Source of the DNA: Candidatus Aminicenantes bacterium RBG_13_64_14
GTDB lineage: Bacteria > Acidobacteriota > Aminicenantia > Aminicenantales > Saccharicenantaceae
Length of the DNA: 11,259 nucleotides
Reading direction: 5' to 3'
Assembly (NCBI GenBank): GCA_001773855.1
Contig: MEXZ01000086.1
Location: 2,585-13,843, forward strand
The notes under the pieces: model-generated
Seen by the model: only the letters and a program-made list of their open reading frames with translations
Databases searched by the model: none
What the model was told of the DNA's origin: nothing
In this document: in pieces, positions 7,799-11,259 of the stretch
Numbering within the stretch: the stretch's first letter is position 1
Layout: each line of letters begins with the position of its first letter
Made by a program: the position numbers and the translations under genes

Positions 7799-9970
7799 TT
7801 AGTAGTGTTTTTTTACCGGGTTCGCCGCTCTGCTACCGTCGGGGACAGCCCTGAAATCCGCCGACCAATCGACCGTCCCGCTCTCGCCGGGAAGCAGCTT
7901 GACCCTGACCGTGAGGCCCTCGTTTTTCTTCTCGAGGACCGTGGCGCCCGGGCAGTCAAACTTGTCCAAACGATACCCCTCGGGCTCGGTCAGGAAGAGC
8001 TCGTAAGGGTCGCCGGCGATGACGAAGCTCCTCCCGGAAAGCCTTCCGTCCGCCCATCGGACATCCGCCAGGTCCACCCCGCCGCAGGTGACATGCCGGC
8101 TCGTGGCGATGACCTGGGGGCGGGGCTGCCTTTCCCGGATGACCAGAGCCTGCGAGCGGAAGATGGGATCGAGCGGGCCCGAAGCGAACGAACCGGTGAA
8201 GCTCCCCAGAAGCTGCCGCGTCCAGAACTCGAAGACGTAGTATTCCTTCCCGGGGTCTAGACCGAGGTCGGCGAACCGGATCTCCCGGACGGACTCGCCC
8301 GTCCGGCCGAGGACCATCCAGTCCTCGAAAGGCCGGGCGATCTCGAGAAGGAAGAGGTCGCAGGTCGGCTGAAGGCCGGCATCGAAGACCCGGGAGCCGG
8401 AGCCGCTGACCTCGGCCCCGACGCGGCCGAGCTCGTCGGACCTCGACGGGTCGACGTCGAAGATCTGCCCCGGTCGGGTCCAGAGGACGGGCGCCGCCCG
8501 GCGGGCGGGCTCGACGGCCTCCGTCCGGTAGAGCTCCGGCTTGTCGGTCAGCAGCAGGATCGACCCGGTGAGCGATGTCACGAGGGTCGATTTGTAGCGG
8601 TCCTCGTTGAGTTCGATGTGGTCCGGGTCGTTCCGCCACACGACGTTGTTCCAGGAGTTGAACTGGGCCAGACCGGCGTAGGAGAAGCCGTCCGTTCCGA
8701 TCCGGCAGCCGTCGAGGAGGCCGATGAGCTCGGGCCGGATGCCCCAGCAACCGAGGAGGAAAAAATCCCGGCCGATCTCCTGGCGGATCGCCTCGAGGTA
8801 GCTTCTGTAGGCGGCGACGAGGTTGCTCTTGGTCCTCTCGAAATGGCCGGCATGGGCGTTGTATCCTTCGTAACGAAGGTGGCGCAGGGCGTCGACCTTG
8901 TAGTATTCCCAGCCCATTTCCCGCAGACCACGGTACACCGGCCTGACCACGGCGTCGACCGCCTCCGCCTTCGAGGCGTCGAGGCTGAACTCGATCCAGC
9001 TGCCGCGGGCGGGGCGCCCCGTCTCGTCGCTCACGAACCAGTCCGGTCGCGAGGCGGCGAAATCGGCCTGCTTGAAGGCGACGTTGGTCCAGATGCCCGG
9101 CTTCAGGCCTTTGCTCTTGATGTAGCGCGGCAGGAATCCCAGCCCGCGGGGAAACTTGGCGTTCGCTTCGAGCCAGAGCTCGGGCAATCCCTCGCCGCGC
9201 TGATAGCCGTCATCGATCTGGAGGTATTCGTAGCCGAACGGCAGGAGGACGGTCGAGAGCGTATCGGCCGTCTCCACGATGTCCCTTTCCGTCACCTTGT
9301 CAAGGAAAGCGAACCAGGAGATCCAGCCGGCGACGGGATGCGGCCAGATCTTGTAGGTCCACGGTTCGAAGAACTCGAGGCCCCGGTGAACCTGGTAGAA
9401 CCGAGGCCGGAAACGGACAACGATCTCGCCGCCCTCGGCCTCGAAGCCGTATTGCCGGATTCCCGGCTCTTCCTCGAGGCACCTGACCGAGGCCCGCGGC
9501 CCGGCGTCGACTGAAAACGCCCAGTCCCGGCCCCGGTCGTAGACGGCCCGGTTGAGCAGGCTGCGGCTCGCACCGGAAACGTGCCGGACCATGACCGGAC
9601 CGCGGTCGCGGCGGTCGGCTTCGCAAGGGAACGACTCGGGGCCGCCGAAGAGAGTGCCTATGAGCCGGATCTTGCCGCCCCGATCGCGGGGGGTCAGGAG
9701 GATGACCTGGCTGACGGCATCTCCCGACCGAAAGACGTTGATCTTGGCCTCTACTCCGGACTCGACCCCGGAGATCTCACCCGTGAATATCTCCCGGCCA
9801 TCATAACGGATGCGGAGCTTGTTCCCTTTGATGGAAACGTGGGCAGCCTCATTCGGCGGCGGCGCCGAAGCCGGTCCCTTCCTGCCGCAAGATGCCAGAA
9901 CCGCGGCCAACCCCAAGACCACCATGGCAACGATCACGGACACCCCTTTAGATGTCAGGCGTTTCTTCAT
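7799..9970 (-). CDS. GH36-like (alpha-galactosidase clan) lipoprotein
   Basis: This 723-residue protein begins with a lipoprotein signal ending in LASC (25-28), so C28 is probably lipidated and the enzyme sits at the membrane facing outward. Residues 45-200 form a beta-rich N-terminal domain. The catalytic (beta/alpha)8 barrel shows GWISWFAFLDKVTERDI (215-231), YEYLQIDDGYQ (247-257), NAKFPRGLGFLPRYI (270-284), KPGIWTNV (290-297), YYKVDALRH (356-364) and FLLGCWG..CRIGTDG (404-428). By family logic D360 in YYKVD is the nucleophile and D427 in RIGTD the acid/base. WRNDPDHIELNE (445-456) is also typical, and a beta-sandwich C-terminal region follows. Clan members hydrolyse alpha-galactosides or related alpha-linked sugars; the exact substrate is not visible. 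Start: GAGGAG 6 nt before the ATG. It stands alone, with no transporter or sugar kinase beside it. Confidence 0.85.
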   Translation of the reverse strand: MKKRLTSKGVSVIVAMVVLGLAAVLASCGRKGPASAPPPNEAAHVSIKGNKLRIRYDGREIFTGEISGVESGVEAKINVFRSGDAVSQVILLTPRDRGGKIRLIGTLFGGPESFPCEADRRDRGPVMVRHVSGASRSLLNRAVYDRGRDWAFSVDAGPRASVRCLEEEPGIRQYGFEAEGGEIVVRFRPRFYQVHRGLEFFEPWTYKIWPHPVAGWISWFAFLDKVTERDIVETADTLSTVLLPFGYEYLQIDDGYQRGEGLPELWLEANAKFPRGLGFLPRYIKSKGLKPGIWTNVAFKQADFAASRPDWFVSDETGRPARGSWIEFSLDASKAEAVDAVVRPVYRGLREMGWEYYKVDALRHLRYEGYNAHAGHFERTKSNLVAAYRSYLEAIRQEIGRDFFLLGCWGIRPELIGLLDGCRIGTDGFSYAGLAQFNSWNNVVWRNDPDHIELNEDRYKSTLVTSLTGSILLLTDKPELYRTEAVEPARRAAPVLWTRPGQIFDVDPSRSDELGRVGAEVSGSGSRVFDAGLQPTCDLFLLEIARPFEDWMVLGRTGESVREIRFADLGLDPGKEYYVFEFWTRQLLGSFTGSFASGPLDPIFRSQALVIRERQPRPQVIATSRHVTCGGVDLADVRWADGRLSGRSFVIAGDPYELFLTEPEGYRLDKFDCPGATVLEKKNEGLTVRVKLLPGESGTVDWSADFRAVPDGSRAANPVKKHY

Positions 9971-10127: not shown

Positions 10128-10366
10128 TGGAGGCGGCCGCCGGAAATCGGGGCGAGGGGAATATCGGAGAGAGCATAAGCGGTGATTTAGTCGGTCGGCG
10201 TGACGGACGAGGGCAGTTTCAGGGGAAACCGCCAAAACGTGTTTGAGCTCGGCGTAGCGCACGCCGAGCGAGTTGTTTTGGTGCCGAGTCCGGTGCGATG
10301 ACCGGCGTGAAAAATCACCGCAGCGAACGAAGATATTCCCCGAAGCCCCTCCGCGGCCGTCGTCCA
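10128..10366. other. ~240-nt self-complementary element: structured RNA or palindromic mobile element
   Basis: The two halves pair in strict mirror order. Helices seen: TGGAGG with TCgTCCA (10128-10133/10360-10366, one bulge, one G-T), CGGCCGC/GCGGCCG (10134-10140/10353-10359), GGA/TCC (10142-10144/10350-10352), GGGGC/GCCCC (10149-10153/10345-10349), GGGGAATATC/GATATTCCCC (10156-10165/10332-10341), GCGGTGATTT/AAATCACCGC (10179-10188/10312-10321), CGGTC/GACCG (10192-10196/10300-10304), GGAC/GTCC (10205-10208/10288-10291), CGCCAAAA/TTTTGGTG (10230-10237/10276-10283) and apical GCTCGGCGT/ACGCCGAGC (10247-10255/10261-10269) with a 5-nt loop. A side hairpin GTTTC/GAAAC lies at 10216-10229. Internal loops are conserved-looking and unequal. 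I recognise no known RNA family, and the strand cannot be decided. A MITE-like or ssDNA-folded mobile element is an equal alternative. Confidence 0.6.
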
Positions 10367-10380: not shown

Positions 10381-10392
10381 GCTGGGAGGCCG

Positions 10393-10411
10393 GGGGATAT
10401 GCATGATCCCC
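10393..10411. other. 6-bp hairpin GGGGAT/ATCCCC
   Basis: GGGGAT (10393-10398) and ATCCCC (10406-10411) flank a 7-nt loop holding ATGCAT. It lies between the folded element and the next promoter, without a T-tract. Confidence 0.3.
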
Positions 10412-10459
10412 ATCATTGCCAGAACGGGCAGCGTCCCGCGGCCAAGCGGTGATAGAGGA

Positions 10460-10475
10460 ATTCGCGGCGGCGAAT
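10460..10475. promoter_or_regulatory. 6-bp dyad ATTCGC/GCGAAT upstream of the last gene
   Basis: ATTCGC and GCGAAT flank a GGCG loop in the spacer to -35 zone of the following promoter. The direct repeats GTGATAGA at 10448 and 10476 bracket it, making a compact control region. Confidence 0.3.
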
Positions 10476-10479
10476 GTGA

Positions 10480-10497
10480 TAGAATTCCGGGGAATTC
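10480..10497 (+). promoter_or_regulatory. Extended -10 promoter overlapped by a palindrome
   Basis: TGaTAGAAT gives an extended -10 (TAGAAT 10480-10485, 5 of 6) with no clear -35. The perfect dyad GAATTCC-gg-GGAATTC (10482-10497) covers the -10 and likely start, an operator-like position. An AGGGAG Shine-Dalgarno follows at 10501-10506, 8 nt before ATG 10515. Confidence 0.45.
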
Positions 10498-10514: not shown

Positions 10515-11259
10515 ATGAAAAAAGCGCTCCTCGCGGCCCTCGCGGGCTTGTGCCTCCTCCAGGCGGGGCTTCCCAGTCCTAACCGGACCGGGGCAGGGCT
10601 TGCCAGTCCCGGTCCGGTTAGGGCCGGGGCGGGGTTGGCCGCCGTCGACAGCCTGTCCCAGCTCTTCGGCCCGGGCAAGGCCGTCCTCGACCTCGACGGA
10701 GACGGTTTCCCGGAGAAGCCGGCCGTCACCATCATCATCCCCGACAAGCCAACGGCCCGCGAGGTCGCCCTGGCCGCCGACATCGCCGCCCGGGTCAATT
10801 TCGAGAGCCTGGCCGTCGACTTCGGGCTCGTCCGACGGGAATCGGAGGTCGCCGGCCGGCAGCCCATCCCCTTCCCGATCCTCATCGGCAGCAACCTGGC
10901 CTGGGTCCGTGAAGCTTTGAAGGAGCGCCGGCTCGACCCCGTCTCGCTCGGCCCGAACCGGGGGCTGGTGTTCCTGTTCGCCCGGAAAAATCAGCGCGGC
11001 ATCGCCTGCGTCGCAGGGTCGGACGAGGCCCTCCTCCGGACCGGACGGGCCTTTTTCCTGCGCTGGCCGTATTTTTGGGAAGTCTGGGGCAGCGAGATCG
11101 GGGCCACCTACATGAGCCTCGAGAACGATCTGGCCGCGTTCCTGGCCGCGGCGGGAGTCAAGTTCCAGAAGACGGTCATCCGGGATGCGCTTTACGAATT
11201 CCCCGTCGACCCCGGCCCATCGGACGGCCTCCGGGCCTTAACCTTCGACCAGGGCCAGA
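10515..11259 (+). CDS. Secreted protein of unknown function, C-terminus cut by window edge
   Basis: 248 residues are visible before the right edge. The start is set by AGGGAG 8 nt before the ATG. A Sec signal peptide (MKKALLAALAGLCLLQA) leads into a Gly/Ala/Pro-rich linker (residues 18-43) made of two 10-residue repeat units. The mature part begins near VDSLSQLFGPGKAVLDLDGDGFPEKP (44-69); the DLDGDGFPE stretch resembles the calcium-binding or FG-GAP-like loops of secreted proteins. It continues with alternating strands and helices: AVTIIIPDKPT, a helix rich in Ala, PFPILIGSN (119-127), NRGLVFLFAR (148-157), GIACVAGSDEALLRTGRAFFLRWPYFW (162-188). I do not recognise the family and assign no function. 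Codon use is GC3-rich like its neighbours. It is divergent from the glycosidase gene across the folded element. Confidence 0.75.
   Translation, partial: MKKALLAALAGLCLLQAGLPSPNRTGAGLASPGPVRAGAGLAAVDSLSQLFGPGKAVLDLDGDGFPEKPAVTIIIPDKPTAREVALAADIAARVNFESLAVDFGLVRRESEVAGRQPIPFPILIGSNLAWVREALKERRLDPVSLGPNRGLVFLFARKNQRGIACVAGSDEALLRTGRAFFLRWPYFWEVWGSEIGATYMSLENDLAAFLAAAGVKFQKTVIRDALYEFPVDPGPSDGLRALTFDQGQ
10566..10622. repeat. 15-bp perfect inverted repeat plus 30-bp-period direct repeat inside a coding region
   Basis: CCTAACCGGACCGGG (10578-10592) and CCCGGTCCGGTTAGG (10608-10622) pair perfectly around a 15-nt spacer. GGGCTTCCCAGTCC (10566-10579) recurs as GGGCTTGCCAGTCC (10596-10609), 13 of 14 bases and exactly 30 nt apart, so the reading frame is kept. 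The block sits just after the signal peptide and encodes a low-complexity linker. Confidence 0.75.

Follow-up and report, generated by a model that had tools for sequence, protein, structure and literature searches.

A branched intergenic element in Candidatus Aminicenantes is probably an old or derived copy of an order-wide, MITE-like repeat family with a conserved core

The window analyzed here is an 11,259-nt stretch of the genome of Candidatus Aminicenantes bacterium RBG_13_64_14. A 239-nt segment of it (positions 10128 to 10366) is flanked by a melibiase-like gene (7799 to 9970, minus strand; Pfam PF02065, E 7.8e-9) and an open reading frame that begins at 10515 and runs off the window, and whose first 248 amino acids give no Pfam match. 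The segment itself has no coding capacity, and a 92-aa minus-strand reading frame listed over it is without support. Farther along lie an incomplete copy of a second palindromic repeat, called type C below, a possible arm remnant, and a promoter-like sequence ahead of the downstream gene (Table 1). By eye, the same promoter is found in relatives that lack the element, such as G011, and the orthologous place in G004 holds what looks like a solo left arm that ends in the same letters as AAGCGGTGAT.

An earlier note on this DNA, made from the letters alone, described the segment as folding on itself through nested helices in mirrored order. These helices are real. RNA folding of 10128 to 10366 yields -132.8 kcal/mol for the + strand (z -7.45) and -110.8 kcal/mol for the - strand (z -6.87), and on either strand none of 200 dinucleotide shuffles folds as well. 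The two perfect 10-bp pairings pointed out in that note are present (GGGGAATATC with GATATTCCCC, 166 nt apart, and GCGGTGATTT with AAATCACCGC, 123 nt apart), and its apical stem with a 5-nt loop can be read directly (GCTCGGCGT/ACGCCGAGC, 10247 to 10255 and 10261 to 10269). The boundaries need revision, as the part common to the copies described below is 10149 to 10348 rather than 10128 to 10366, and the outer arms are present in only some copies. The core aligns with our covariance model R1 at 217.8 bits (E 3.9e-52), a score obtained with the window copy among the sequences from which R1 was built. Directly outside the basal stem, GA faces GA in most copies (by eye), and the tip of apical hairpin 2, GGCGT-AGCGC-ACGCC in the window, varies in length in other families.

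The note recognized no signature of a known RNA, and Rfam 15 agrees with it: the window has no gathering-level match, and the matches listed up to E 5 for 16 and 11 further loci lie off the element. In the open-licence literature on RNAs, repeats, and MITEs of Aminicenantes, we found no description of this element.

Table 1. Features of the intergenic element and its surroundings, in window coordinates.
Feature	Position	Strand	Remarks
Conserved core (model R1, full length)	10149..10348	+	Three-way junction on a basal stem, with two apical hairpins
Left outer arm	10128..10148	+	Paired in the fold; in part of the copies of the own genome and relatives
Right outer arm	10349..10366	+	Pairs with 10128-10148
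Basal stem, left arm, GGGGAATATC	10156..10165	+	Partner 10332-10341
Basal stem, right arm, GATATTCCCC	10332..10341	+	Helix 2
Second stem, left arm, GCGGTGATTT	10179..10188	+	Helix 4
Second stem, right arm, AAATCACCGC	10312..10321	+	Helix 4
Apical hairpin 1, GTTTC-AGGG-GAAAC	10216..10229	+	Helix 9; stem letters covary between copies
Apical hairpin 2	10230..10283	+	Strongly conserved UGUUUGAGC / GCGAGUU internal loop
Type C palindromic repeat, partial copy	10384..10443	+	60-nt match, 85%, in L020
AAGCGGTGAT	10444..10453	+	Possible remnant of an older left arm (by eye)
Promoter (extended -10-like) for the downstream gene, TGTGATAGAAT	10475..10485	+	By eye

The element is present many times in its own assembly (G000; 1.79 Mb in 161 contigs, 71% complete), where BLAST finds 26 matching places. 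The best 11 of these cover 94 to 321 nt of the query at 82 to 100% identity, and the remainder are shorter pieces. Among 60 genomes searched by BLAST, all 13 of the genus carry the element, and none of the 47 others does (21 from the same family, 26 from the order). These copy numbers rule out a single-copy RNA gene and fall on the side of a mobile repeat, which is how the earlier note had proposed to read multiple copies. The pattern GAGNGAGCATNAGCNGTGATTTAG recurs in 25 stretches of GTDB genome contigs, all from MAGs titled Candidatus Aminicenantes except for one titled Acidobacteria bacterium. Phage and plasmid records hold no match to the window element and viral contigs no exact match to the pattern; an origin from phage, plasmid, or virus was therefore rejected on searches with the genus sequence as query.

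Covariance models extend the distribution to several families of one Candidatus Aminicenantes order. Model R1 has matches in 28 of 94 genomes of the order, including a single match in G002. When 150 candidates were scored, R1 gave 16 matches in G000, 29 in G004, 7 in G010, and 4 in G003, and model R2, which was built from 33 diverse matches, gave 33 in G048, 33 in G034, 34 in G061, 30 in G065, 14 in G049, 13 in G036, and 6 in G013, with none in G015, G020, G037, or G040. The element is short (about 180 to 300 nt across copies) and multicopy, with 1 to 34 matches per positive genome. With seven candidates scored per genome, R2 matches at least 14 of 347 genomes sampled across the phylum, and 13 of the 14 belong to the order. 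The two matches outside the order, L229 and G364:C25:1081-1277, both come from G364 (R2, best E 2e-10) and are doubtful; L229 keeps UGUUUGAGC / GCGAGUU without the other loop motifs.

Two genomes show further features of distribution and composition. In G061, a single-contig genome, 16 of the 31 listed copies (of 34) lie within 420 kb (contig 1, 2.18 to 2.60 Mb), roughly opposite the contig ends, and none of 5000 random placements was as dense; a replication-strand test in this genome gave no strand assignment, because the sampled GC skew is too noisy in mid-contig. In G065, copies L282 to L301 have a GC fraction of 0.51 within the element and 0.33 in the flanks.

The copies are modular. In copies elsewhere, the window-type (type A) basal stem bears short caps instead of the three-way junction, the junction is also found on a different basal stem (type B), and in L020 and L070 its place is taken by the type C palindrome. 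Type C is a GC-rich repeat scattered in the genus, either nested inside the element or replacing it; besides the partial copy in the window, it was located in L020 (1424 to 1584), L161, L162, and L173. An extra hairpin domain is present in L015 and L016, and two copies of the own genome (C158 and C118) carry a side hairpin in opposite orientations. Three G049 copies (L222, L231, and L239) have common sequence far past the model ends, which constitutes another kind of outer arm.

Flanking genes allowed us to group copies into 17 orthologous sites that are occupied in at least two species of the genus, a grouping of our own in which some sites rest on one shared gene only. Within several of these groups the module type differs between species, and in 3 of the 17 the element is inverted (L014/L064; L031 versus L047 and L055; L069 versus L044 and L077). 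Occupation of 17 sites in this manner is more persistence than mobile junk needs, and it counts against assignment of the element to the MITEs.

Two orthologous sites were surveyed in each of the 13 genus genomes. At the first, R2 matches occur in five genomes (G004, G011, G001, G012, and G006; by eye, type A in G012 and type B in G006), and G004 carries a second, inverted short element besides its match. The type C palindrome is present in two genomes (G005 and G000), and neither R2 match nor type C is found in the remaining six (G010, G009, G002, G003, G007, and G008), of which G008 has a different upstream gene by eye. At the window site, the melibiase-like neighbor lies within reach in G000, G004, G011, G003, and G008. 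Only G000 has an R2 match there; the element is not matched at all in G011 and G003, a 41-nt piece of it is present in G008, and G004 has an apparent solo left arm (by eye) that BLAST with the window element missed at E 1e-3. None of the eight remaining loci has a melibiase match within reach; in some of them (G005, G006, and G012) the available flank is short. Filled and empty orthologous sites, by which MITEs can be recognized, are thus both represented.

Direct signatures of transposition came from flanks of up to 300 nt, read for 20 of the 33 copies in G034 and 20 of the 30 in G065, taken from the best-scoring. In G065, which belongs to another family, the element extends past the model to inverted repeats that begin with GGTTCTCTTCCATTTTGTGTGGG. 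Nine of the 20 copies share ends beginning with GGTTCTCTTCC (mismatches allowed in two) together with an 8-bp direct repeat at one boundary, -50/+35; the repeat is exact in seven and has one mismatch in two, the duplicated words are mostly different among the nine (for example, AACAAGAT, AATAAAGT, and GATTTATC), and the nine cores are 91.8 to 98.4% identical. When any boundary is accepted, an 8-bp repeat with at most one mismatch accompanies a terminal repeat in 11/20 copies (0 to 4 with permuted flanks), and exact 8-bp repeats are found in 7/20 (0 to 1 with permuted flanks). ISL3-type transposons likewise produce an 8-bp duplication and have ends that start with GG, a likeness confined to the ends of the G065 element.

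Elsewhere the signal is thinner. In G034, 2 of the 20 copies combine a terminal repeat with a duplication (0 in five permuted trials). Two G046 loci (L226 and L236) have the same -30/+25 boundary as L273 of G034. Six of 20 further places in other genomes (19 loci) pass in a reading made without a control (L154, L157, L226, L233, L235, and L236); L157 is the same copy as L282, and some of the other passing places are of low complexity or lie elsewhere. Among 73 copies from the window's own genus, just 2 pass, which is the chance level (0 to 3 when permuted), and a fixed-offset scan of 72 genus copies for target duplications found none. The window copy has no terminal repeat with target duplication when up to two mismatches are allowed. 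Terminal inverted repeats and target duplications therefore come from the longer flanks of two relatives only, and the low count in G034 and the chance level in the genus argue against a MITE, as does the failure to find the element at 19 Y1 transposase loci of the genus. Given the G065 repeats and duplications, we conclude that the family moves, or has moved, as a MITE, and we file the window copy as a relative of that family rather than as a proven member.

On balance, we consider it probable that the window element is a copy, likely old or derived, of an order-wide, MITE-like, non-autonomous family built on a conserved, branched core that forms on one strand. The case for mobility is good at the level of the family and only indirect where the window copy itself is concerned. 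The earlier note preferred a structured RNA and kept a palindromic mobile element as its main alternative. It is this alternative that is favored by the number of copies, the terminal repeats and duplications of relatives, and the filled, empty, and fragmentary sites; the part of the RNA proposal that stands is the conserved, strand-preferring fold. In this reading, a DDE transposase supplied in trans would cut and join the ends of the element, and the core would be kept because its folded + strand, as a transcript or as single-stranded DNA, is recognized by something in the element's life.

Support for the fold comes from compensatory changes, which are strong both within the genus and across families. 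The genus alignment comprises 24 of the 27 copies that have both arms (three with inserted domains were left out), and 22 of its 64 consensus pairs carry such changes. In an alignment of 93 R1 matches, which include short variants and make up 89 distinct rows, both sides have changed in 58 of the 64 pairs, the basal stem shows compensatory changes in 10/10 pairs, and 94.7% of cells pair, compared to 78.0% when shuffled and 30 to 47% when the partner is slid. For 33 diverse matches, compensatory changes occur in 51/64 pairs and 95.2% of cells are paired (75.2% shuffled); for a cross-family set of 28 matches, the corresponding values are 54/64 and 91.7% (66.9% shuffled, 37 to 49% slid). Because the model served both to find the rows of these last three alignments and to align them, the paired-cell percentages lean toward the structure, and the compensatory changes weigh more. 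Recurrent motifs also unite the copies (GAUUUAGCC / GGCGU.AAAAAUC; GAGGG.A / GCCGAG; and UGUUUGAGC / GCGAGUU). As judged by these sequence comparisons, the core structure is under selection. The earlier note had hoped that copy number and covariation would separate a mobile repeat from an RNA gene, but here both signals are present together.

The fold also prefers one strand. All 24 genus copies fold lower on the + strand, and RNAalifold assigns them -84.9 kcal/mol on this strand versus -50.0 kcal/mol on the other. Counted over all pairs, there are 93 G.U cells and 11 A.C cells; in covarying pairs the counts are 35 and 9, and in the covarying pairs of the cross-family set they are 50 and 18. 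Among the covarying pairs shared by the predictions for both strands, the excess is weak (9 to 5), and thus the asymmetry may in part be a product of fitting the + structure. A symmetric cruciform without strand preference is disfavored by this asymmetry, although any structure fitted to the + strand is itself biased toward G.U. The preference leaves room for a role of the core as a structured RNA.

The best surviving alternative builds on this point and proposes a dispersed, functional structured RNA, similar to a small RNA or ribozyme, that spreads by transposition. The core would be transcribed, fold, and act, and only the core would matter, such that selection would keep it, and not the terminal repeats, across the order. 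Different ends and outer modules would carry the same RNA, often placed so that its 3′ end adjoins a promoter, and the RNA would be kept at some sites after loss of the ends. Such a role is consistent with the covariation across families, the G.U versus A.C asymmetry, GA pairs that face each other within internal loops (by eye), and cores that are recognizable although the outer arms differ between copies. It also agrees with the conservation of unpaired columns, 19 of 67 of which are at least 95% identical in copies that range from 48 to 67% GC. These columns were counted in 26 of the 28 cross-family rows (alignment A4), after the doubtful G364 match and one short variant were dropped. In the same rows, however, 19 of 113 paired columns are equally invariant, and the mean top-letter frequency is 0.715 for unpaired and 0.708 for paired columns. 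Thus, a subset of loop letters is nearly invariant, but unpaired letters are on average no better conserved than paired ones, and the proposal that junction letters overall are better conserved than stems was abandoned.

Transcription into the element is also not apparent from predicted sigma70-like promoters. Pairs of this type reading into its 5′ side occur at control level in the genus (6/37 versus 7/37 shuffled), in 0/20 copies in G065, and in 1/20 in G034. Orientation is unbiased in tandem gene pairs (8 sense and 12 antisense sites), which argues against a functional transcript and led us to reject a sense 5′ UTR element, and sites without the element exist. On this evidence, we regard a transposon-borne RNA with its own function as unlikely, yet as the alternative to be taken most seriously.

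The position of the element relative to neighboring genes is polar. Promoter-like pairs reading away from the 3′ end accompany 20 of 37 non-redundant genus copies, compared to 5 of 37 when shuffled, and their -10 boxes lie 26 to 107 nt away. In 7 of the 20 this distance is 26 to 29 nt, which places the -35 box a few nucleotides from the end of the core. Consistent with this, the 20 nt directly past the 3′ end contain the starts of 11 TTGA[CT] words versus 1 to 4 per later bin, and nine copies have such a word at 0 to 12 of the 3′ end versus one at the mirrored place of the 5′ end. Neighboring start codons are nearer to the 3′ end (median 64.5 nt, versus 176 nt from the 5′ end; p = 3e-4 after de-duplication), and the distance of stop codons from the two ends does not differ significantly (p = 0.14). 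Pairs reading away from the 5′ end accompany 14/37 copies (6 when shuffled), at 61 to 155 nt. The 3′ placement is seen in G034 (7/20, above the 95% level of shuffles) and not in G065 (2/18), and it may reflect where the element prefers to insert, the loss of copies from every place where they do harm, or a function.

Other aspects of gene context are less distinctive. Promoter-like pairs read into the element from its 3′ side in 9/37 copies (3 when shuffled). An avoidance of convergent genes, suggested by raw counts, vanished upon comparison with long gaps that lack the element, a baseline of only 22 gaps. Ten proteins were scanned, eight of them neighbors with diverse Pfam matches, and no theme emerged.

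If function explained the 3′ placement, the folded strand might be a DNA-level cis element, that is, a protein-binding or topology site with its 3′ end at a -35 box. This proposal would account for the 20 of 37 promoter-associated genus copies, the clustering of TTGA[CT] words, and the G034 placement, but it has to contend with the G065 result, with 17 of 37 genus copies that have no such promoter, with promoters that are present also where the element is missing (by eye), and with neighbor proteins that share no theme. We therefore judge it to be improbable.

Least probable is a REP/RAYT (REPIN) system or a set of integron attC sites: despite the strand-specific hairpins of the element, Y1 transposases in most genomes examined (75 of 94 in the order), and a variable tip that we take to resemble attC sites, the 19 Y1 loci of the genus gave a single R1 match (11.4 bits, E 0.1) and so do not have the flanking expected of REP/RAYT, one Y1 locus has different hairpins of its own, G005 (96% complete) carries the element with no Y1 match, and integron integrase exceeds the cut-off in 4/94 genomes of the order and 0/13 of the genus. 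At L204 of G004, a Y1-transposase gene lies between similar 32- to 37-bp hairpins of another kind (beginning with GAAGGTACCAGGTCT; 354 to 419 and 1430 to 1505), possibly a REP/RAYT pair. A retroelement such as a group II intron or retron was likewise rejected, as RVT_1 occurs in 12/94 genomes of the order and 3/13 of the genus, and the element carriers G004, G005, and G001 have no match.

Among known systems, REP/REPIN sequences with RAYT resemble the Aminicenantes element in being dispersed palindromes, and Y1 proteins are present in most genomes of the order; the element is nevertheless larger, branched, and not found beside the 19 Y1 genes. Parallels are also offered by ERIC/IRU, YPAL/RU-2, RUP, and Correia, which are small, multicopy, and highly base-paired bacterial MITEs; a review of small mobile sequences marks target duplications for four of the seven families in its table (PMC2229807). 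The Aminicenantes element shares these three properties. The same review notes that YPAL has neither A+T richness nor TA ends and that its mobility was deduced from sites found filled or empty (PMC2229807), which is also how mobility was judged here. The Aminicenantes element differs from these families in its phylum, its core of about 200 nt with outer arms, the GGTTCTCTTCC ends and 8-bp duplication seen in a related genome, and a branched core whose stems show compensatory changes in several families of an order, this last comparison drawing on covariation in the Aminicenantes element alone.

Modularity is reminiscent of the BOX elements of streptococci (boxA-boxB-boxC), in which boxB can be absent or repeated between outer modules, other flanking modules occur in Streptococcus suis, and the spaces between convergent genes are enriched in copies (PMC3049150). 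In the Aminicenantes element, by comparison, basal and apical modules differ between species at the same genomic site, and its contexts match those of other long gaps (on the small baseline mentioned above).

These findings suggest that the interior of a small bacterial repeat can keep a branched fold across several families while its stems, outer arms, and ends change. If this is true, then the folded strand must be recognized, either by the transposition machinery or by a cellular partner. Concrete leads come from the modules that differ at shared sites and from the polar position of copies beside -35 boxes, and the covariance models provide a means of annotating it in an uncultured lineage.
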